Assembly: GCF_900110485.1 (NCBI RefSeq)
Contig: NZ_FODY01000013.1
Location: 1 to 64,000, forward strand
Source of the DNA: Propionispora vibrioides
GTDB taxonomy: Bacteria > Bacillota > Negativicutes > Propionisporales > Propionisporaceae
Direction: 5' to 3'
Length of the DNA stretch: 64,000 nt
In this document: piece by piece, positions 11,728 to 20,714 of the stretch
Layout of the letters: each line of letters opens with the position of its first letter
Position numbering within the stretch: position 1 is the first letter of the stretch
Made by a program: the position numbers and the translations under genes
The notes under the pieces: model-generated
Told to the model about the DNA's origin: nothing
Database searches by the model: none
What the model saw: the letters and a program-made list of their open reading frames with translations, nothing else

Positions 11728-11960
11728 CTCCCGCTTCTTCTATTTCCAGTATAGGTCAGTAAATCAGCTTATTCAATACATGCAAAGGTAAGCTGCACCT
11801 ATGGCAATCTAAGTTGCAAGTTTCGGGGATCTACAAAAAAAGAAACCTCTACTACATATTTCAGTTCTCAACCTTATAAATTTCTCCATAATAAAATATC
11901 ATAGTGGTTTACATAGCAACAAAACTTCCGGAAACACTATACAAAAAGGAGGAGTAGAGC

Positions 11961-12485
11961 ATGAACATCATACGCCTGGGAACAAGATTTCTCAACAATA
12001 GTTCTCCGCTTACGTTATTAGCTGCCGGTGCTGCTATTGCCGTTGCTTTTCCACCTGTCCGGCGGGGCTTTCGCGCGGTTGCCGTCATGACTACCCGAGG
12101 AGCCTTGGCCGTTGCAGACAGCGTTAAAGATTTAGGAGGCAAACTGAAAGAAAGTACCGCGGATATTGTGGCGGAAGCCAGAGACTATAGCGGGTCTCCA
12201 CAGGACACTCTGTCGGAAACCATTGACTGTATTAAAGATACTGTCAGACACCAAGGCCGTCGTGTCGCAGTAGCAACCACCGCAGGTGCCCTGACATTGT
12301 CGGATAGAGCCCGGAAAATACGCCGGAACTTTAAAGATGTGGTAGAGGAAGCCAGAACCAGTCGCGCTGATAGAAACGATACCGAAGAGGTACGAGACGA
12401 CCTGGCTTATGAAAACCCGGAAGATTCACCATACGAACTTTTAGATACCGATCTAACTCCCCCTCATAACAGACATAAAGAATAA
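11961..12485 (+). CDS. Membrane-anchored PacL/DUF1490-like protein with duplicated module
   Basis: This 174-residue protein has one N-terminal hydrophobic segment (about residues 15-32, TLLAAGAAIAVAFPP) followed by a module repeated twice. The first copy reads RAVAVMTTRGALAVADSVKD and ends TADIVAEARDY (about 38-78). The second reads RRVAVATTAGALTLSDRARK and ends DVVEEAR (about 94-132). The module resembles what I recall of DUF1490/PacL proteins of mycobacteria, small membrane partners of metal-exporting P-type ATPases. A large P-type ATPase gene lies next to it, convergently. The start follows AAAGGAGGAG. A terminator follows directly. The PacL link is from memory and needs a profile search. 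Confidence 0.62.
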   Translation: MNIIRLGTRFLNNSSPLTLLAAGAAIAVAFPPVRRGFRAVAVMTTRGALAVADSVKDLGGKLKESTADIVAEARDYSGSPQDTLSETIDCIKDTVRHQGRRVAVATTAGALTLSDRARKIRRNFKDVVEEARTSRADRNDTEEVRDDLAYENPEDSPYELLDTDLTPPHNRHKE

Positions 12486-12499
12486 AGGATAAAAAGAAC

Positions 12500-12540
12500 A
12501 GAGTTGCCACTGTGCATTAGTGGCAACTCTATTCTTTTTC
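12500..12540 (+). terminator. Intrinsic terminator of the PacL-like gene
   Basis: An 11-bp stem (AGAGTTGCCAC) with a 9-nt loop is followed by ATTCTTTTTC, 14 bp after the stop codon. Confidence 0.9.
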
Positions 12541-12624
12541 CATGATCCAAAAGTACGGCTTTCCGGTCTGATTAAAATAAACCATCTGCCTGTGCTCCGG
12601 AAGTGGCATAAGCCAAGTCTTTTC

Positions 12625-12768
12625 CTAAATTCCCGGGTCCTGCTTCTTTTCCTGCATTTTTTTCATTGCACAGGTTTTACCCACACCGTATACAAAAGGA
12701 ATCCCGATGGCATGAATCAAAAGGAATGCGCCCCAGCCAATCGCGGGACGTGCCAGCAGCCAGTACAT
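12625..12768 (-). CDS. 47-residue membrane peptide
   Basis: The peptide MYWLLARPAIGWGAFLLI... has one transmembrane stretch (residues ~10-32) and a lysine-rich tail (KKMQEKKQDPGI). The ATG at 12768 is preceded by a very strong AAGGAGGTG ribosome binding site, which is the main support. An upstream extension of the frame to 12852 lacks a start signal. It lies 152 bp downstream of the giant ATPase gene on the same strand and could be a small subunit of that transporter, as seen for many P-type pumps. That role is inference. Confidence 0.6.
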   Translation of the reverse strand: MYWLLARPAIGWGAFLLIHAIGIPFVYGVGKTCAMKKMQEKKQDPGI

Positions 12769-12920
12769 AGCATCACCTCCTTGCCACTTGTGCCGTGTCA
12801 GCCCTATTCCGTGGATACTGACGGGAGATATTACAAAAAATCTTCTCGCCACAACCCAGCAGTGTTAAGGTTGATACAAGACTAGTATTAGCAAAGAGGA
12901 AACATCCAACCCTTTCAACT

Positions 12921-15900
12921 TCAGTTCTCCTGCAATAACCTGAGTTGTGGCAAGGGACGCGTTTGTAACTCCTTGCCCGGTCTCCTCCATAACCAAAAGT
13001 CAAATACCGCAGTTACGATAGACACAAAGATCGCCAGACTCCATTCCCATACCGTTAATGGAACTGTACCGAAGACGGGCTGCAAAAACGGCAGATGAAT
13101 GGACCCGATGACCATGAGCATCGATAGTGCTATCGCCGCAAACAGCCATTTGTTGTTTATACATTCCGTTTTTTTGATACCCTTTTCGATCCGGCAATCC
13201 AAAAGGTGGATAAACTGGCTGATAGCCAACTGGGCCAGCAGCAAAGAACGGGCGAGCAACAGATTGCCGCTTTGCCGCAATTTCCATCCATACAGCAATA
13301 AGCTGCTAACGCCAATAATCAAACCCCTGCTTATAATTTTCCTGCCCAGCCCATGAGCAAATACGCTTTCACTGCTTGACTGGGGACTTTGTTCCATTAT
13401 ATTTTCCGGCGGTGGATCATTGACAAGGGCAACCGCCGGCAAACCGTCACCGACCAGGTTAATCCACAAGAGTTGTATCGGTATCAACGGCAGCGGCATG
13501 CCTAGCACAACGGCCAAAAACATAAGCACTACCTCGCCAACATTGGTTGCAACCAAATACCGTATGGCCTTACGGATATTATTATAAATCGAACGGCCTT
13601 CTTCCATAGCCTTTATGATGGTCGCAAAATTATCATCGGCTAATGTCATACAAGCAGCTTCTTTGGTAACATCCGTGCCGGTTATCCCCATGGCAATGCC
13701 AATATTGGCGGCCTTTACGGCTGGAGCGTCATTTACCCCGTCGCCAGTCATGGCAACCACCTCGCCCCGGCTTTGAAAGGCCTTAACAATACGCATCTTA
13801 TGCTGTGGGGTCGTCCTGGCGAATATGCAGGCTGTGGGGGCCGCTGCGGCCAATTCCTCATCCGTCATGCTGTCAATTTCCAGGCCTGTAATAATGCGCC
13901 CGTTATCCTTTAACAATCCCAGTTCCAGACCGATTGCCCTGGCCGTATTCGGGTGGTCTCCGGTAATCATGACTACCTTGACTCCGGCGCGGTGACATTT
14001 GGCGATCGCTTCCGGGACCTCGGCCCGAGGCGGATCGATCATCCCAACCAGGCCGCAAAAAACCAGATTATCTTCTCTTACCTGCTCCTGCCCCGCACCG
14101 TCTGCTTCCATAGGCCGGTAAGCACAAGCCAGAACACGCAATGCTCTTGCAGCCATAGCATTATTCGCCTGTTCAATATTCCGACGGGTTGTCTCATCCA
14201 ACGGATAGCTATGTTCTCCGTCGGTGTAGTGAGTGCAAAGGCTAAGAATTTTATCAGGGGCTCCCTTGGAGTAAAGCGACATCTGCTTGCTGTCATCGGT
14301 ACATAAAACGGACATCATACATCGTTCCGATTCAAAAGGGTATTCCACTACCCGGCAATGAGTTTCCGAAAATTGCTCAATATCAATGCCGGCCTTTGCC
14401 GCCAAAGTCAGGAGGGCCCCTTCAGTTGGATCACCGTCAATCGCCCAGCTTGCGGTTATACAAGGTCGCAAGGGAATCACCTTGCGATTTGCTTCCGTTT
14501 TCATCAGCTTTGCATTATTGCAAAGCGTGGCAATGGTTGCTACTTTTTTTAGCAGGCCGTTGGGTTTTACCGATTGATTATCAGCCACAAACTTACCCGC
14601 CGGATCATACCCTTCCCCGCTGACCAGCCAGTGACCGGCTGGTGAATATACCTCGCGCACCGTCATTTGGTTCTGCGTCAGCGTTCCCGTTTTATCGGAG
14701 CAAATGACGGTGGCCGCCCCTAGATTCTCAATGGAGGAAAGCCGGCGAACAATAATATTCCGTTTGCTCATCCGCTGAACCCCCATAGCCAATGCAATGA
14801 GAACAATGGCGGAAAGTCCCTCCGGTATCGCGGCCACAGCCAGACTGGCTCCTGTTTGCAGCATCTGAATCATCGGTTCGCCCCTTAATGTGCCCGCTAA
14901 AAAGACGAGGCCGGACACGGCCAGGCAGCCATACACTAAATATTTCCCCAGTTCCTCCAGCCGCCGTTGCAAAGGAGTTGCCTCTTCCTTCTGCTCCCCG
15001 ATCAAGGAGGCAATCTTGCCCATTTCCGTCTGCATACCGGTAGCGACCACCACCGCGGTTGCCCGTCCTCTGGTAACAGTGGTGCCCATAAACACCATAT
15101 TTCTCCGGTCTCCTAAGGCAACCTGATCCTTTTCCAACTTATCATATTGCTTTTTTACCGGAAGCGTTTCCCCGGTTAAAGACGCTTCTTCCACTTCAAA
15201 ATGAACGCCTTGCAGCAACCGGGCATCAGCCGGTACCCGGTCCCCCGCTTCCAGAACAATGATATCACCGGGAACTACGGCGGCGGCGCTCACTTTAACC
15301 TGCCGGCCTGCCCGGATTACCCTGGCCTGCGGCGCCGCCAGTTCCTGCAGGGCATCTAGCGACTGACCGGCCTTTCGTTCCTGGGCAACCCCCAAAAACG
15401 CGTTGGCCGTGACAATTCCCACTGTCAGCATGGCATCTCTTCTTTTACCCAGTATGAAGCTTAAACCGGCGGCGCCAACCAGCACCTGAACCATAAAATC
15501 CTTAAATTGATCCAGCAACTGCCGCCAAAACGAAGGCTTGGGCCGTTCCGCCAGACGGTTATGGCCATAATGCAAGCAGCGCAGTGCCGCATCCTGTTCA
15601 CCCAGTCCCCACTTGTTGGAAGTTCCCAGTTCCTCGCAGGTTTCTTCCGGACTCAGCCCATACCATTTTTTCGCTTCTGCCGGGATATGATTTTTCGCCT
15701 CACCCGCCTGCAGCGAACCAAGCTGAGATTCATTCATGGCAAAACGCTGCAAATTCAAGGGTTGACCCATTGGTGTGTTTTGGCCGGAAGTCAACAGGCG
15801 CCCTGAGTTGAGCACGACTCCCAGCGTGCTGATATTGGCCAGCAGCCCTGCCGTCAGCGGAGAAATAAGCCGGACAGCGGCTAAAGCTATCCCTATTATG

Positions 15901-17939
15901 TTTAATCCCGCAGCTAAAGCAATATTTTGCTTTACCACCTCATTTAGCCGTTTTCCCAATACCACTGTTTTTGCTATTTTGGCAGGATCATCATCGCCAA
16001 TGACAATATCGGCCTTGTTGATGCTGGGCCCGGAGCCGGTTTTTCCCATGACAATGCCTACGTTGCTTGCCTGCAGGGCGTGCACGTCATTCATACCGTC
16101 GCCTACCATGATCACTTTATAATCATGCCGCTTTATATTTTGTATGATTCTGGCCTTTTCTTCGGGCAGCACCCCGCTGTAGGTATAGGGAATATCCAGC
16201 GTTGCGGCCACCGCCTGGGCGGCAGGATCCGCATCGCCGGTCAGCAGTGCCAGGTTCTGAATGCCCAGGCAGCGCAAAGCGGCCACACTTTCCAAACTGG
16301 CTGGCTTTATTTTGTCCCGGACTGCAATCAGTCCGCATAATTCCCGGTTAACCGCGACGTAGACAATTGTTTTGCCGTTCATTTTCATTCGGACAATCCG
16401 GTCTTTTGCCCCACCCAGCAGGACTTTTTCCTGCTGCATGAGTGTCTGATTGCCCACAGCAACCTGTTTCCCTGCTATAACGGCACAAACGCCTTTACCA
16501 GGAACCAGCCGGCTGTCGGCTGGCGGAAGCTGCAAGCCTCGTTTGACTGCTTCTGCCAGCAGCACCCGGTTGTACGGTTGAAATTCCCTTTCTCCTGCTG
16601 CCGCCGCCAGACGTATTATTTCGTCCTCACTCATACCGCCGATTGGCACAATTTCACCAATATGCGGCACAGCTTCCGTGAGTGTACCTGTTTTGTCGAA
16701 TACAACCGTATCGGCTTCTCCCGCCGTTTCCAGTGCCCTGGGCTCTTTTACATAAATATTGTCTCCCATTGCCTGGGCAACTGCCGTCCCCATCGCCGAA
16801 TTTCTCGCCAGCGAGATGGCTGCCGGCGACCCGGCAAGCAGTACGGCGATACTGCGGGGAATATCCCGGGTAAACAGAAAGATCAAACCGGCAATTGTAA
16901 GGCTCCACCACATCACTTTGTTGACATACCGGTCACTGATATGCCAAAGACCTTCATATTTGACCATATCATAGGCCAACGGCCTATAAGGAGTATTGTC
17001 AACATTATGTACCTGAATTTGAATCGATCCGGTTTCAATCAGCGCTCCGGGATGAACTATATCACCTTTAAGAGCCAAATACGGCATACAATCACCGTTC
17101 ACCGCCGCCCGGTTTAATTCCGCCTGGCCGGCAATGATTTTTCCCTCAACAGGTATCGTTTCCCCCGAATGTAATGCAATCACATCGCCAGCCTTAATAT
17201 TATGTTCCTGTATACTCTGCCTGCGGTCTGCCTCCAAACTAAGCCATTGTTGCTGCTTTTGCTGGAGCATTTTCTCAATCTGGCCACGGGATCTGGCCTG
17301 CATCACAAATTGAAAGAAATTAGCCAAATGGACAATCCACAGAATGGATAAGCCTGTTATACTTTCCCGCATGGCCAGCATCAGCAAGGAGGCTATAAAA
17401 ATAACCAGGTCATGATTGACCCGTTTATGCCGTATCAATGATTTTACCCCGCTGCGAAATAAGGGATACCCCGATATAATTGTTGTGAGAGCCACCAGGT
17501 TAAACACATGGGGCGAAGAAGCCAGCGTCGAACGCCCTACTACCAGCCGTTTGGCAAAAATAGCCGCCAAAACACCGCCTGTTGTCAAAGCATACAACCC
17601 GGCACGGGAAGTTTCTCCCGGTTCCGGTACCGGAGCGGCAGCGGCGATCTGTCGCAACGCTGTGGCCTCACGGCGAACCTCCTCCAAAGTCTGATAGGTA
17701 CTGACCACTTTAGCCACTTTTGCTCTGATGTCCGGCAAACCAATGACCGCAGCCTCATATAACACCAAAATCCGCCCGGTAAGCGGATTTGCCGTTACTT
17801 CACGAATTCCTGCCACCGAAGGCAGACATTCCTTTAGTAATTTTGCTAAAACAATATTCCGGTAAAGTCCTTTAACTTCCATTCTTAGACGTCCCGGTAT
17901 CAGCCTACATTTCCCTGTCATCGTTTCCAAATGTATCAC
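12921..17939 (-). CDS. Tandem double P-type cation ATPase (degenerate P1B-like plus P2-like)
   Basis: A 1672-residue membrane protein containing two complete P-type ATPase frameworks. The N-terminus (about 1-85) is an HMA-like fold without the CxxC metal site. The first ATPase half has the phosphorylation motif DKTGT at Asp415 and GDGMND at 613, but the TGE loop reads NGDC (281-284), the CPC membrane motif reads SPAA (371-374) and the HP motif is absent. The second half has TGE at 922, PEGL at 1039, DKTGT at Asp1082 and TGDGVND near 1399. It also has the SERCA-like metal-site segments NVGEV and NLVGDGLP. It is therefore likely a working Ca2+/Mn2+-type exporter with a regulatory first half. 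The size recalls actinobacterial CtpH/CtpI. The start may be GTG 17939, the TTG three codons on, or ATG 17921. Confidence 0.88.
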   Translation of the reverse strand: MIHLETMTGKCRLIPGRLRMEVKGLYRNIVLAKLLKECLPSVAGIREVTANPLTGRILVLYEAAVIGLPDIRAKVAKVVSTYQTLEEVRREATALRQIAAAAPVPEPGETSRAGLYALTTGGVLAAIFAKRLVVGRSTLASSPHVFNLVALTTIISGYPLFRSGVKSLIRHKRVNHDLVIFIASLLMLAMRESITGLSILWIVHLANFFQFVMQARSRGQIEKMLQQKQQQWLSLEADRRQSIQEHNIKAGDVIALHSGETIPVEGKIIAGQAELNRAAVNGDCMPYLALKGDIVHPGALIETGSIQIQVHNVDNTPYRPLAYDMVKYEGLWHISDRYVNKVMWWSLTIAGLIFLFTRDIPRSIAVLLAGSPAAISLARNSAMGTAVAQAMGDNIYVKEPRALETAGEADTVVFDKTGTLTEAVPHIGEIVPIGGMSEDEIIRLAAAAGEREFQPYNRVLLAEAVKRGLQLPPADSRLVPGKGVCAVIAGKQVAVGNQTLMQQEKVLLGGAKDRIVRMKMNGKTIVYVAVNRELCGLIAVRDKIKPASLESVAALRCLGIQNLALLTGDADPAAQAVAATLDIPYTYSGVLPEEKARIIQNIKRHDYKVIMVGDGMNDVHALQASNVGIVMGKTGSGPSINKADIVIGDDDPAKIAKTVVLGKRLNEVVKQNIALAAGLNIIGIALAAVRLISPLTAGLLANISTLGVVLNSGRLLTSGQNTPMGQPLNLQRFAMNESQLGSLQAGEAKNHIPAEAKKWYGLSPEETCEELGTSNKWGLGEQDAALRCLHYGHNRLAERPKPSFWRQLLDQFKDFMVQVLVGAAGLSFILGKRRDAMLTVGIVTANAFLGVAQERKAGQSLDALQELAAPQARVIRAGRQVKVSAAAVVPGDIIVLEAGDRVPADARLLQGVHFEVEEASLTGETLPVKKQYDKLEKDQVALGDRRNMVFMGTTVTRGRATAVVVATGMQTEMGKIASLIGEQKEEATPLQRRLEELGKYLVYGCLAVSGLVFLAGTLRGEPMIQMLQTGASLAVAAIPEGLSAIVLIALAMGVQRMSKRNIIVRRLSSIENLGAATVICSDKTGTLTQNQMTVREVYSPAGHWLVSGEGYDPAGKFVADNQSVKPNGLLKKVATIATLCNNAKLMKTEANRKVIPLRPCITASWAIDGDPTEGALLTLAAKAGIDIEQFSETHCRVVEYPFESERCMMSVLCTDDSKQMSLYSKGAPDKILSLCTHYTDGEHSYPLDETTRRNIEQANNAMAARALRVLACAYRPMEADGAGQEQVREDNLVFCGLVGMIDPPRAEVPEAIAKCHRAGVKVVMITGDHPNTARAIGLELGLLKDNGRIITGLEIDSMTDEELAAAAPTACIFARTTPQHKMRIVKAFQSRGEVVAMTGDGVNDAPAVKAANIGIAMGITGTDVTKEAACMTLADDNFATIIKAMEEGRSIYNNIRKAIRYLVATNVGEVVLMFLAVVLGMPLPLIPIQLLWINLVGDGLPAVALVNDPPPENIMEQSPQSSSESVFAHGLGRKIISRGLIIGVSSLLLYGWKLRQSGNLLLARSLLLAQLAISQFIHLLDCRIEKGIKKTECINNKWLFAAIALSMLMVIGSIHLPFLQPVFGTVPLTVWEWSLAIFVSIVTAVFDFWLWRRPGKELQTRPLPQLRLLQEN

Positions 17940-18013
17940 CCTATCCGACTACAATTTGTTTAGTTATTATACTGGAAAGAAAATATGGAAACTAAAGACC
18001 TGATGACGCAAAG

Positions 18014-18046
18014 GAACAACAGTAAGGCTTGTCCTTATTGTTGTTC
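18014..18046 (-). terminator. Hairpin downstream of the 77-residue gene
   Basis: GAACAACAGTAAGG pairs with CCTTATTGTTGTTC (one G-T type mismatch) right at the stop codon of the 18045 gene. On the minus strand it is followed by CCTTTGCG, a weak T tract, so termination may be partial, letting transcription reach the ATPase gene. Confidence 0.55.
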
Positions 18047-18278
18047 AAAAAAACTTCAGGCGCGTCCAGGAAACACCGGAGAGTAAATTGTCCTTGGCCT
18101 CTTTACTCCTCTGTTTAACATACCCGAAAAAATCTTTTAAAAATAATTCCCACACCACAATCACTTCCGACTTGTCCTTTGGTGATTGCCGGCGTAGCTC
18201 AATGCTTAAATCTACAGCCTCCCGTAATTCTTTGCTAATCGCGGATACTTTTTCTTTCAAATCCTGTAGATCGGCCAT
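18045..18278 (-). CDS. Small helical protein of the ATPase locus
   Basis: A 77-residue, charged, mainly helical protein without membrane segments. The first half (about residues 4-30) has heptad-like spacing suitable for a coiled coil, and the C-terminus is basic and aromatic (SWTRLKFF). The start ATG is well supported by CAGGAGGAACGAG. It begins 14 bp after the 18293 gene stop, so the two are one transcript. I do not recognise a family. Its fixed place beside the ATPase suggests an accessory role. Confidence 0.65.
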   Translation of the reverse strand: MADLQDLKEKVSAISKELREAVDLSIELRRQSPKDKSEVIVVWELFLKDFFGYVKQRSKEAKDNLLSGVSWTRLKFF

Positions 18279-18292
18279 CTCGTTCCTCCTGA

Positions 18293-18919
18293 TTAAGGTG
18301 TAGGCTCCGTGGGCTCTGTCACCGTTTCATCTATAGCACTGTCAATGGACTGCTTAAACTGTTCAAACTGAGCTTCACTGACAATATCCTCCAAATCCTC
18401 CCGGACACCGCTAAACATTCCCTGGGCTTGTTCCGATAAGCCCATAATTCCCTGAACCGTTTTAATAGCCAGGGGCCGAAGTTTTTCTCTTACACTTGGC
18501 AGCAACAGCATACCCAATGCTGCTGTTCCCAGCCAAAAGGTCGGGCTGTGGCCCGTTTTCATTCTCATCCGGTGCCCCATTCTCCGGTGGGTGCGGGTAA
18601 AACTGTTCATATCCGGACTTTGCTCCACCAAATCGGCCAATTCGGTCAGATGCATTAATTCCCGGCGTTCCTGACGGATCATATCCTGTAAAACACTTCG
18701 GGCATAAGGATCGGTTATGGTGGCAAGTTTACGTTCATACGTACTAACCGCCGCTAACTTGGCCTCAAAAATCTGATCCAGACTTTCGGAAGATTCTACA
18801 TTGGTTGTTTCCGTAATTCTTTCCCGCATGCGCTGTCCGCGGCTTTTTCGTTCATACCGTTCCTGCGATTTTGCCTCTTGTTTTTCGTTTTGTTCGTGAT
18901 TTGATTCAATAGCCGGCAT
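18293..18919 (-). CDS. Ferritin-like helical segment joined to a PacL-like module
   Basis: About 208 residues from ATG 18919; an upstream TTG at 18952 lacks a ribosome binding site. After a very polar N-terminus (about 1-45), residues ~47-100 form two helices with a carboxylate pattern (AKLAAVSTYERKL ... RQERRELMHLTELADL) like half of a ferritin/rubrerythrin four-helix bundle, including an ExxH-type motif. A hydrophobic stretch follows (FWLGTAALGMLLLPS). Then comes a module (VREKLRPLAIKTVQG ... REDLEDIVSEAQ) that aligns with the repeated module of the 11961 protein (P-VR--R--A---T--G----S ... DIV-EA). Function is unknown. A metal-handling partner of the neighbouring ATPase is plausible. Confidence 0.6.
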   Translation of the reverse strand: MPAIESNHEQNEKQEAKSQERYERKSRGQRMRERITETTNVESSESLDQIFEAKLAAVSTYERKLATITDPYARSVLQDMIRQERRELMHLTELADLVEQSPDMNSFTRTHRRMGHRMRMKTGHSPTFWLGTAALGMLLLPSVREKLRPLAIKTVQGIMGLSEQAQGMFSGVREDLEDIVSEAQFEQFKQSIDSAIDETVTEPTEPTP

Positions 18920-19020
18920 ATACGCTCTGCCCCTTCTGTTATAGGATAACAATGTACAAGATAATATTACCCAGTTTAACCCATGTTATGCAGTTGCCTT
19001 CTCTGCGGGCAATAAAAAAA

Positions 19021-20078: not shown

Positions 20079-20714
20079 TTGCAACATATTGGCTGGGCTT
20101 TTTTCGTTGCTTTTGCTGCCAATCTTGATAACCTGGGAGTAGGCATCACCTACGGAATGCGCCATATAAAAATATCCTATACGGCCAACGGGATCATTGC
20201 CGCTACATCGTTTTTCGTTGCCTGGATCTCCTCACAAGCCGGGCAAAGCTTCAGCCTATATGCCTCGCCCCAAATCGGCGCCATCATCAGTACCGCTTTA
20301 CTGGTTTCAATGGGGCTATGGATCTGTCTCCAGCCAATCATTCACGCTGTCAAAGAGAAGCAGCCTATCATGGATCTACAGTTATTCGGAACCAAAATAT
20401 ATATCGGCCCGGTTGAAATATTGCGTCATCCGGAAAAGGTGGATCTGGATGCCTCGAAAGATCTTTGCTGCCGTGAGGCTTTCCTGCTTGGCTTTGCGCT
20501 TTCCCTGAATGCCATAGCCGGAGGGTTTGCTATCGGCACTGCCGGCCAGTCCCCTTTACTCGAATCTGTTCTCGTTAGCGCCTTCAGCCTTCTTACCGTC
20601 AGTTTAGGACATTATTGGGGACAAAAATATGCTTCGGAACTTCTCGGGAACTATGCGACTACCGTTTCCGGCTTTTTGCTGATGCTCATTGGAGTATACC
20701 AACTGGCCGGCTAA
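20079..20714 (+). CDS. ytaF: YtaF-like (MntP-fold) membrane protein
   Basis: A 211-residue integral membrane protein with two homologous halves, each starting with the family signature: FAANLDNLGVGITYGMR (residues ~12-28) and GFALSLNAIAGGFAIG (about 137-152). A loop of about 60 residues separates them. These features define the MntP/YtaF group; YtaF members are associated with sporulation in Bacillus and the fold resembles manganese exporters. The start is TTG, supported by a strong AGGGGGGA ribosome binding site. It is a single-gene unit with its own downstream hairpin. Transport activity for this copy is not proven by sequence. Confidence 0.82.
   Translation: MQHIGWAFFVAFAANLDNLGVGITYGMRHIKISYTANGIIAATSFFVAWISSQAGQSFSLYASPQIGAIISTALLVSMGLWICLQPIIHAVKEKQPIMDLQLFGTKIYIGPVEILRHPEKVDLDASKDLCCREAFLLGFALSLNAIAGGFAIGTAGQSPLLESVLVSAFSLLTVSLGHYWGQKYASELLGNYATTVSGFLLMLIGVYQLAG

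Follow-up and report, generated by a model that had tools for sequence, protein, structure and literature searches.

A tandem P-type ATPase with PacL-like neighbours in Propionispora vibrioides and a suggested link to sporulation

Known partner systems and the layout of the locus

In Mycobacterium tuberculosis, the small membrane protein PacL1 stabilises the P-type ATPase CtpC and clusters with it, and its metal-binding tail is needed at high zinc (PMC9374683, PMC13043812). PacL-like proteins of the DUF6110 family that accompany P1B6 ATPases have also been described in Firmicutes (Boudehen 2022, PMC9374683). The giant P-type ATPases of the FUPA24 type (CtpH/CtpI; TC 3.A.3.24) are presented, in the passages of PMC3573892 that deal with them, as about twice as long as normal, the catalytic motifs lying in the C half and the N half being poorly conserved, and CtpH/CtpI are called still uncharacterised in the corresponding passage of PMC10654040. 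Here, we analyzed a stretch of 64,000 nucleotides of the Propionispora vibrioides genome (hereafter the window), in which a preliminary description had placed PacL-like modules on both sides of a two-headed ATPase and proposed a metal-efflux platform.

The open reading frames were found where that description had put them, that of P3 at 18293-18952 (-). P1 (11961..12485, +, 174 aa) has an N-terminal membrane segment and two PacL-like modules, as delimited by the ORF list, family search, alignment, and profiles. Its gene is convergent with that of the tandem P-type ATPase (12921..17939, -, 1672 aa), the two genes being separated by a two-way terminator-like hairpin (12491..12539). On the minus strand, P3 (18293..18919, 208 aa from the ATG at 18919) comprises a ferritin-like hairpin, a membrane segment, and a PacL-like (DUF5132-like) module, and P2 (18045..18278, -, 77 aa), a conserved two-helix protein of unknown family, is encoded between P3 and the ATPase. 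The start of P3 is most likely the ATG at 18919 rather than the TTG at 18952, because a promoter-like -10 occupies 18971-18962 and the alignments start at this ATG. The terminator-like hairpin behind the next gene upstream of P3 (19045-19020), together with a promoter-like element at 18991-18962, suggests that P3, P2, and the ATPase form a separate transcription unit.

Like PacL1/2/3 of M. tuberculosis (DUF1490), P1 has one membrane segment followed by an Ala/Glu-rich helix that ends in D(I/V)xxEA, and its gene adjoins that of a P-type ATPase. In contrast to them, it has two helix modules and lacks a conserved metal-binding motif at its C terminus, its partner is a tandem FUPA24-like pump instead of CtpC/CtpG/CtpV, and its promoter is of a putative forespore type. 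With the DUF6110 proteins it shares what is probably the same module superfamily, the occurrence in Firmicutes, and the lack of a metal-binding motif, but DUF6110 sits in other Negativicutes, was not found in cassette genomes among the 100 searched, and has a different partner ATPase. DUF6110 genes had P-type ATPases nearby in 12 of these 100 genomes of the class (L066-L077; L numbers denote loci), none of which has the P3 cassette. The module of P3 aligns with DUF5132 (PF17195), to which P3 adds the N-terminal hairpin. This hairpin is a short, two-helix, ferritin-like one as in the encapsulated ferritins (EncFtn, EncB/EncC), from which it differs by Exx(E/Q) in the place of ExxH and by its fusion to a membrane module; we recognised no encapsulin gene among those window proteins that were examined. 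Finally, the cassette ATPase resembles the FUPA24 type in its length and C-half motifs, a likeness drawn from the published description and not from CtpH/CtpI sequences. The Propionispora N half nevertheless retains DKTGT, which is lost in many relatives, whereas that description places the motifs in the C half only. The PacL-like genes that flank the cassette ATPase have no counterpart in what the passages on CtpH/CtpI report.

Several other elements lie in or near the cassette. An RNA hairpin at 18014-18046 (-; -14.9 kcal/mol, z -2.7) lies in the stretch that separates the P2 stop from the ATPase start and could damp readthrough into the pump gene. For the 278-aa protein P4 (19037-19873, -), neither Pfam nor NCBIfam offered a convincing family; more than half of the loci have a weak homologue of it near the cassette (about 17-50% identity outside the closest genome), where it lacks a forespore-type promoter. 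At 20079-20714 (+), an MntP-superfamily protein is closest to the sporulation membrane protein YtaF (143.7 bits for a cut-off of 149.6), and relatives of its gene are near the cassette in L040, L044, L046, L047, L048, L052, and L061. We had considered this MntP-like "Mn efflux" neighbour as a hint of manganese and dropped it, since its greater proximity to YtaF leaves it no value as evidence for Mn.

The PacL-like modules and the small proteins

The first module of P1 (12003..12185, +) consists of a hydrophobic segment, RRG...G.L..D, and DIVAEAR. The second (12240..12359, +) has the helix half only, with DVVEEAR: its amphipathic helix is kept and the hydrophobic segment is absent. In P3, the membrane segment and module, found by family search and profile comparison, cover 18350..18565 (-). 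Using profiles built from 21-22 homologues, P1 module 1 matched the P3 module with a probability of 98.5% and a score of 76, and P1 module 2 with 97% and 51, versus about 18 or less for the best of 60 column-shuffled controls and about 13 for reversed profiles. As these scores far exceed both kinds of control, the three modules are homologous beyond chance, which bears out what the preliminary description had claimed for them. One might have suspected generic membrane-anchored amphipathic helices, alike by convergence, that happen to lie near a pump without working with it. The helices are indeed short and of low complexity, and there are weak YtxH and apolipoprotein matches. This explanation is nonetheless very improbable given the distance from the controls, a linkage that spans 11 families and monoderm Firmicutes, and the same promoter type in front of ATPase genes encoded separately (see below).

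The resemblance to DUF1490/PacL, also proposed before, holds for P1 and its relatives and less directly for P3. The profile of P1 module 1 scores 35 with DUF1490 and 34 with DUF6110, close to the 37 between DUF1490 and DUF6110 themselves; the match to DUF1490 has a probability of 88%, and the shuffled maximum is 17. The window P1 itself reaches 14.7 bits with DUF1490 (PF07371), under the curated cut-off of 28.4, and a single homologue passes it at 32.5 bits (L049, from the genus group to which the Sporomusa loci belong). This pass contradicts a report that DUF1490 is confined to Actinobacteria, and DUF1490 is the family most frequently matched by P1 homologues. The window P3 reaches 20.2 bits with DUF5132, under the cut-off of 25. 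Among the relatives found via the P3 profile, L108, which adjoins a giant ATPase, exceeds the DUF5132 cut-off (29.8 bits), while L110 and L111 pass that of DUF6110 and also match DUF5132 weakly. The direct profile comparison of the P3 module with DUF1490 gave no match, and the link runs via P1 and intermediates. DUF1490, DUF5132, and DUF6110, three families of unknown function, can thus be grouped with the P1 and P3 modules in what is probably a single superfamily of partners of P-type ATPases. Among the papers covered by our literature search, none mentions DUF5132.

P1 has a single N-terminal membrane segment by simple hydropathy (best 19-residue values of 1.3-1.9, starting at residues 6-18). 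The GxxG of the PacL membrane segment (PMC13043812) is not present in P1, where G23 is invariant and A27 nearly so instead. The C-terminal metal-binding motif of PacL (DLHDHDH type) is not conserved in the P1 tails, most of which lack an HxH cluster, and the tail is missing altogether from Pelosinus P1. Histidine makes up 6.2% of the last 20 residues of P1 versus 1.7% elsewhere, in a His tail that only some P1 have and that is absent from Pelosinus and several others. Since there is no conserved PacL-type metal-binding tail, a role as scaffold or stabiliser, by analogy with PacL, is likelier for P1.

The helical hairpin of P3 (18623..18799, -; residues 41-99) weakly recalls ferritins. Of 22 P3 homologues, 19 match the EncB ferritin-like family, with a best E of 4e-5 that is far under the family cut-off. 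The hairpin is predicted with a confidence of about 90 over residues 50-90, the remaining model being of low confidence, and the top structural matches of the predicted model (Foldseek) are EncC, EncB, and EncFtn, with high probability and none at E <0.1. A profile search of the PDB with P3 returned nothing significant. The ferroxidase ligand ExxH is absent from the aligned P3 homologues, which have Exx(E/Q) in its place, and, judged by spacing, the other ferroxidase Glu seems to be replaced by Lys. Hence, the ferritin-like segment noted earlier persists as a faint family signal, and iron oxidation by it is unlikely because the ExxH ligand is lacking. P2, which the preliminary description had overlooked, is the best-conserved small protein of the set, with about 51-81% identity across the Negativicutes relatives. 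Its predicted structure had no match in the PDB, and it is unrelated to P3 by profile. In monoderm cassettes, P2 is followed by a glycine-rich (glycine-zipper-like) small protein (L106:10495-10839, L109:3509-3871, L112:10425-10907); none was seen in Negativicutes.

The tandem ATPase and its linkage to the modules

The two-headed ATPase is real. Its 1672 residues combine an N half with HMA_2 and a P1B-like part (15705..17939, -) and a C half of the P2A type (12924..15704, -), Ca2+-ATPase-like and close to PMR1/SERCA. The C half carries PEGL, DKTGT, TGD, GDGVND, and NLVGDG and thus has the motif set of P2A Ca2+-ATPases (PEGL in TM4, DKTGT, GDGVND, and N..xD in TM6). The N half does not have that of P1B heavy-metal pumps: in the window, it has GSPA for CPC and NGD for TGE, and keeps DKTGT with its phosphorylated Asp. 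Across the aligned cassette N halves, CPC is changed to a (C/S)PxA type. The window genus and several relatives retain the phosphorylated Asp. The motif that bears it is lost or deleted in L042, L043, L045, L052, L054-L059, and L060 and truncated in L062, and the monoderm tandems L106, L107, L108, and L112 lack it. This degeneration, which had gone unnoticed in the preliminary description, fits a decaying pseudo-pump, and the N half probably serves in regulation or docking. When plasmids were searched for full tandem ATPases, the matches listed were to the C half only. In several genera, the cassette is adjoined by a stand-alone P1B ATPase, 739-749 aa long, that has CPC and an HN motif and is CtpC-like, P1B6-like (L049:547-2796, L054:9136-11355, L055:10691-12910, L064:5607-7844).

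To describe the distribution of the cassette, we used a sample of 250 genomes of the class. P3 or its module is present in 27 of them, from 11 families, and the other 223 are module-free. The cassette ATPase clade occurs in 20 genomes, all module-positive, and in 0 of the 223 module-negative ones. The co-occurrence that the preliminary description had set as a check is supported in other genomes. The remaining seven module genomes are five of the Pelosinus group, one Anaerospora, and one degraded case. In the Pelosinus group and Anaerospora, P1, P2, P3, and a shrunken N half are kept with no Ca2+-type half alongside. Because these genomes lose that half and keep the rest, the pattern links the small proteins with the ATPase's N half. 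In the degraded cassette of L044 (8397-8753, 5501-6403), P3 is reduced to the module and the ATPase to a 300-aa remnant, with P2 intact.

When 84,980 species were scanned with the P3 profile, the hits within the class came from Propionispora, Lucifera, Pelosinus, Anaerospora, and Sporomusa, and those outside it from Desulfofundulus, Acididesulfobacillus, a Peptococcaceae bacterium, Desulfosporosinus, and Aneurinibacillus, each locus adjoining a P-type ATPase. Two Sutterellaceae-type loci have a DUF6110 module next to an ordinary P1B pump and form a separate branch.

These results bear on the metal-efflux platform initially proposed, in which PacL-like P1 and P3 would gather a heavy-metal exporter and hand over metal under metal stress. 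The relation to PacL/DUF1490, the HMA_2 domain and P1B-like half, the ferritin-like hairpin, and the His-bearing tails of some P1 are all in its favour. We consider it unlikely, as the N half has no CPC and has repeatedly lost its phosphorylated Asp, the metal-binding tail is not conserved, P3 is without ExxH, the intact half is of the Ca2+-ATPase type, and the genes have forespore-type promoters in place of a sigma-A-type signal.

Forespore-type promoters and the restriction to spore-formers

Within the class sample, all 27 module-bearing genomes fall among the 54 that are SpoVAC-positive (spore-forming). The corresponding p value of 1.6e-21 assumes independent genomes, an assumption that does not hold for the spore-formers of the class, with their shared ancestry and larger genomes. 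As half of the 54 spore-formers lack the cassette, it is not essential for sporulation.

The promoter consensus strings are those of Bacillus regulons. P1 is preceded by a sigma-F-type (forespore) promoter-like element at 11911..11939 (+; ACATA-N14-GGAAACACTA) that agrees with the consensus at 11/12 positions; an element of this type precedes P1 in most relatives too. The P3-P2-ATPase operon has one at 18962..18991 (-; GCATA-N15-GGTAATATTA) that agrees at 12/12. With a spacer range that was adjusted once (14-16) after the first results had been viewed, the sigma-F-type scores of the P1 and P3 upstream regions are higher than those of 128 control genes taken from the same loci (p 1e-9 and 2e-10); restricted to one genome per family, the comparison gives 4.5e-8 and 1.7e-6. 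The sigma-A score does not differ between P1 or P3 and controls, and differences for sigma-E/K are marginal and concern P1 only. ATPase genes that lie outside the operon have a sigma-F-type site of their own (10-12/12), whereas those inside are mostly without one (8-10/12; p 0.001). The forespore gene gpr of the same class, a positive control, has the same promoter form, and the ATPase operon of Aneurinibacillus is preceded by a perfect sigma-G-type element. As a control, spoIIR gave a weak result, and the sigma-F pattern in its exact form has 20 matches in the whole genome versus 14 in the control, no clear enrichment. Hence, what carries the promoter argument is conservation from genome to genome. 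Because sigma-F and sigma-G promoters are very similar, the main differences being a G upstream of the -10 and an A downstream of it (PMC3789822), the assignment to one or the other is not firm.

The spore-former restriction and the forespore-type promoters, both missed by the preliminary description, suggest a link of the cassette to sporulation. This link is what is new here: the pairing of PacL-like proteins with P-type ATPases in Firmicutes has precedent in the DUF6110 systems, and our literature search on FUPA and forespore P-type ATPases returned nothing on a P1-P2-P3/ATPase system. The same locus could encode a vegetative pump for Ca2+/Mn2+ homeostasis, its spore-former link reflecting ancestry and genome size and its promoters belonging to another, related sigma factor. 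A C half of the PMR1/SERCA type, the non-independence of the genomes, and the unspecific whole-genome pattern scan agree with such a pump. We judge it quite unlikely, because the promoter signal persists with one genome per family and a perfect sigma-G-type element recurs in Aneurinibacillus, a separate lineage.

We thus favour, with moderate confidence, a conserved membrane pump complex that is probably made in the forespore of spore-forming Firmicutes and has PacL-like scaffold subunits. Its catalytic part would be the FUPA24-like ATPase, in which the intact Ca2+-ATPase-type half is joined to the degenerate P1B-type half and its HMA_2 domain. By analogy with PacL, P1 and P3 would each be anchored in the membrane by one segment, associate physically with the ATPase, and stabilise or cluster it through their amphipathic D(I/V)xxEA helix, with P2 as a presumed third subunit. 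The C-half motifs predict export of Ca2+ or Mn2+ from the cytoplasm; if the pump is made in the forespore, the ion would move out of it into the space between its two membranes. A more specific version, which we hold tentatively as possible, is a forespore-specific ion pump conserved in lineages as far apart as the diderm Negativicutes and the Bacilli, with an active Ca2+/Mn2+ ATPase that carries a decaying P1B pseudo-pump as the dock for PacL-like scaffolds.

CtpH/CtpI-type giant P-type ATPases are without known function, and little is known of how the forespore handles ions. With its forespore-type promoters, the conserved cassette opens both questions to tests in culturable Sporomusa and Pelosinus. 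If the more specific version is true, PacL-type platforms would serve not only metal resistance but also spore development.
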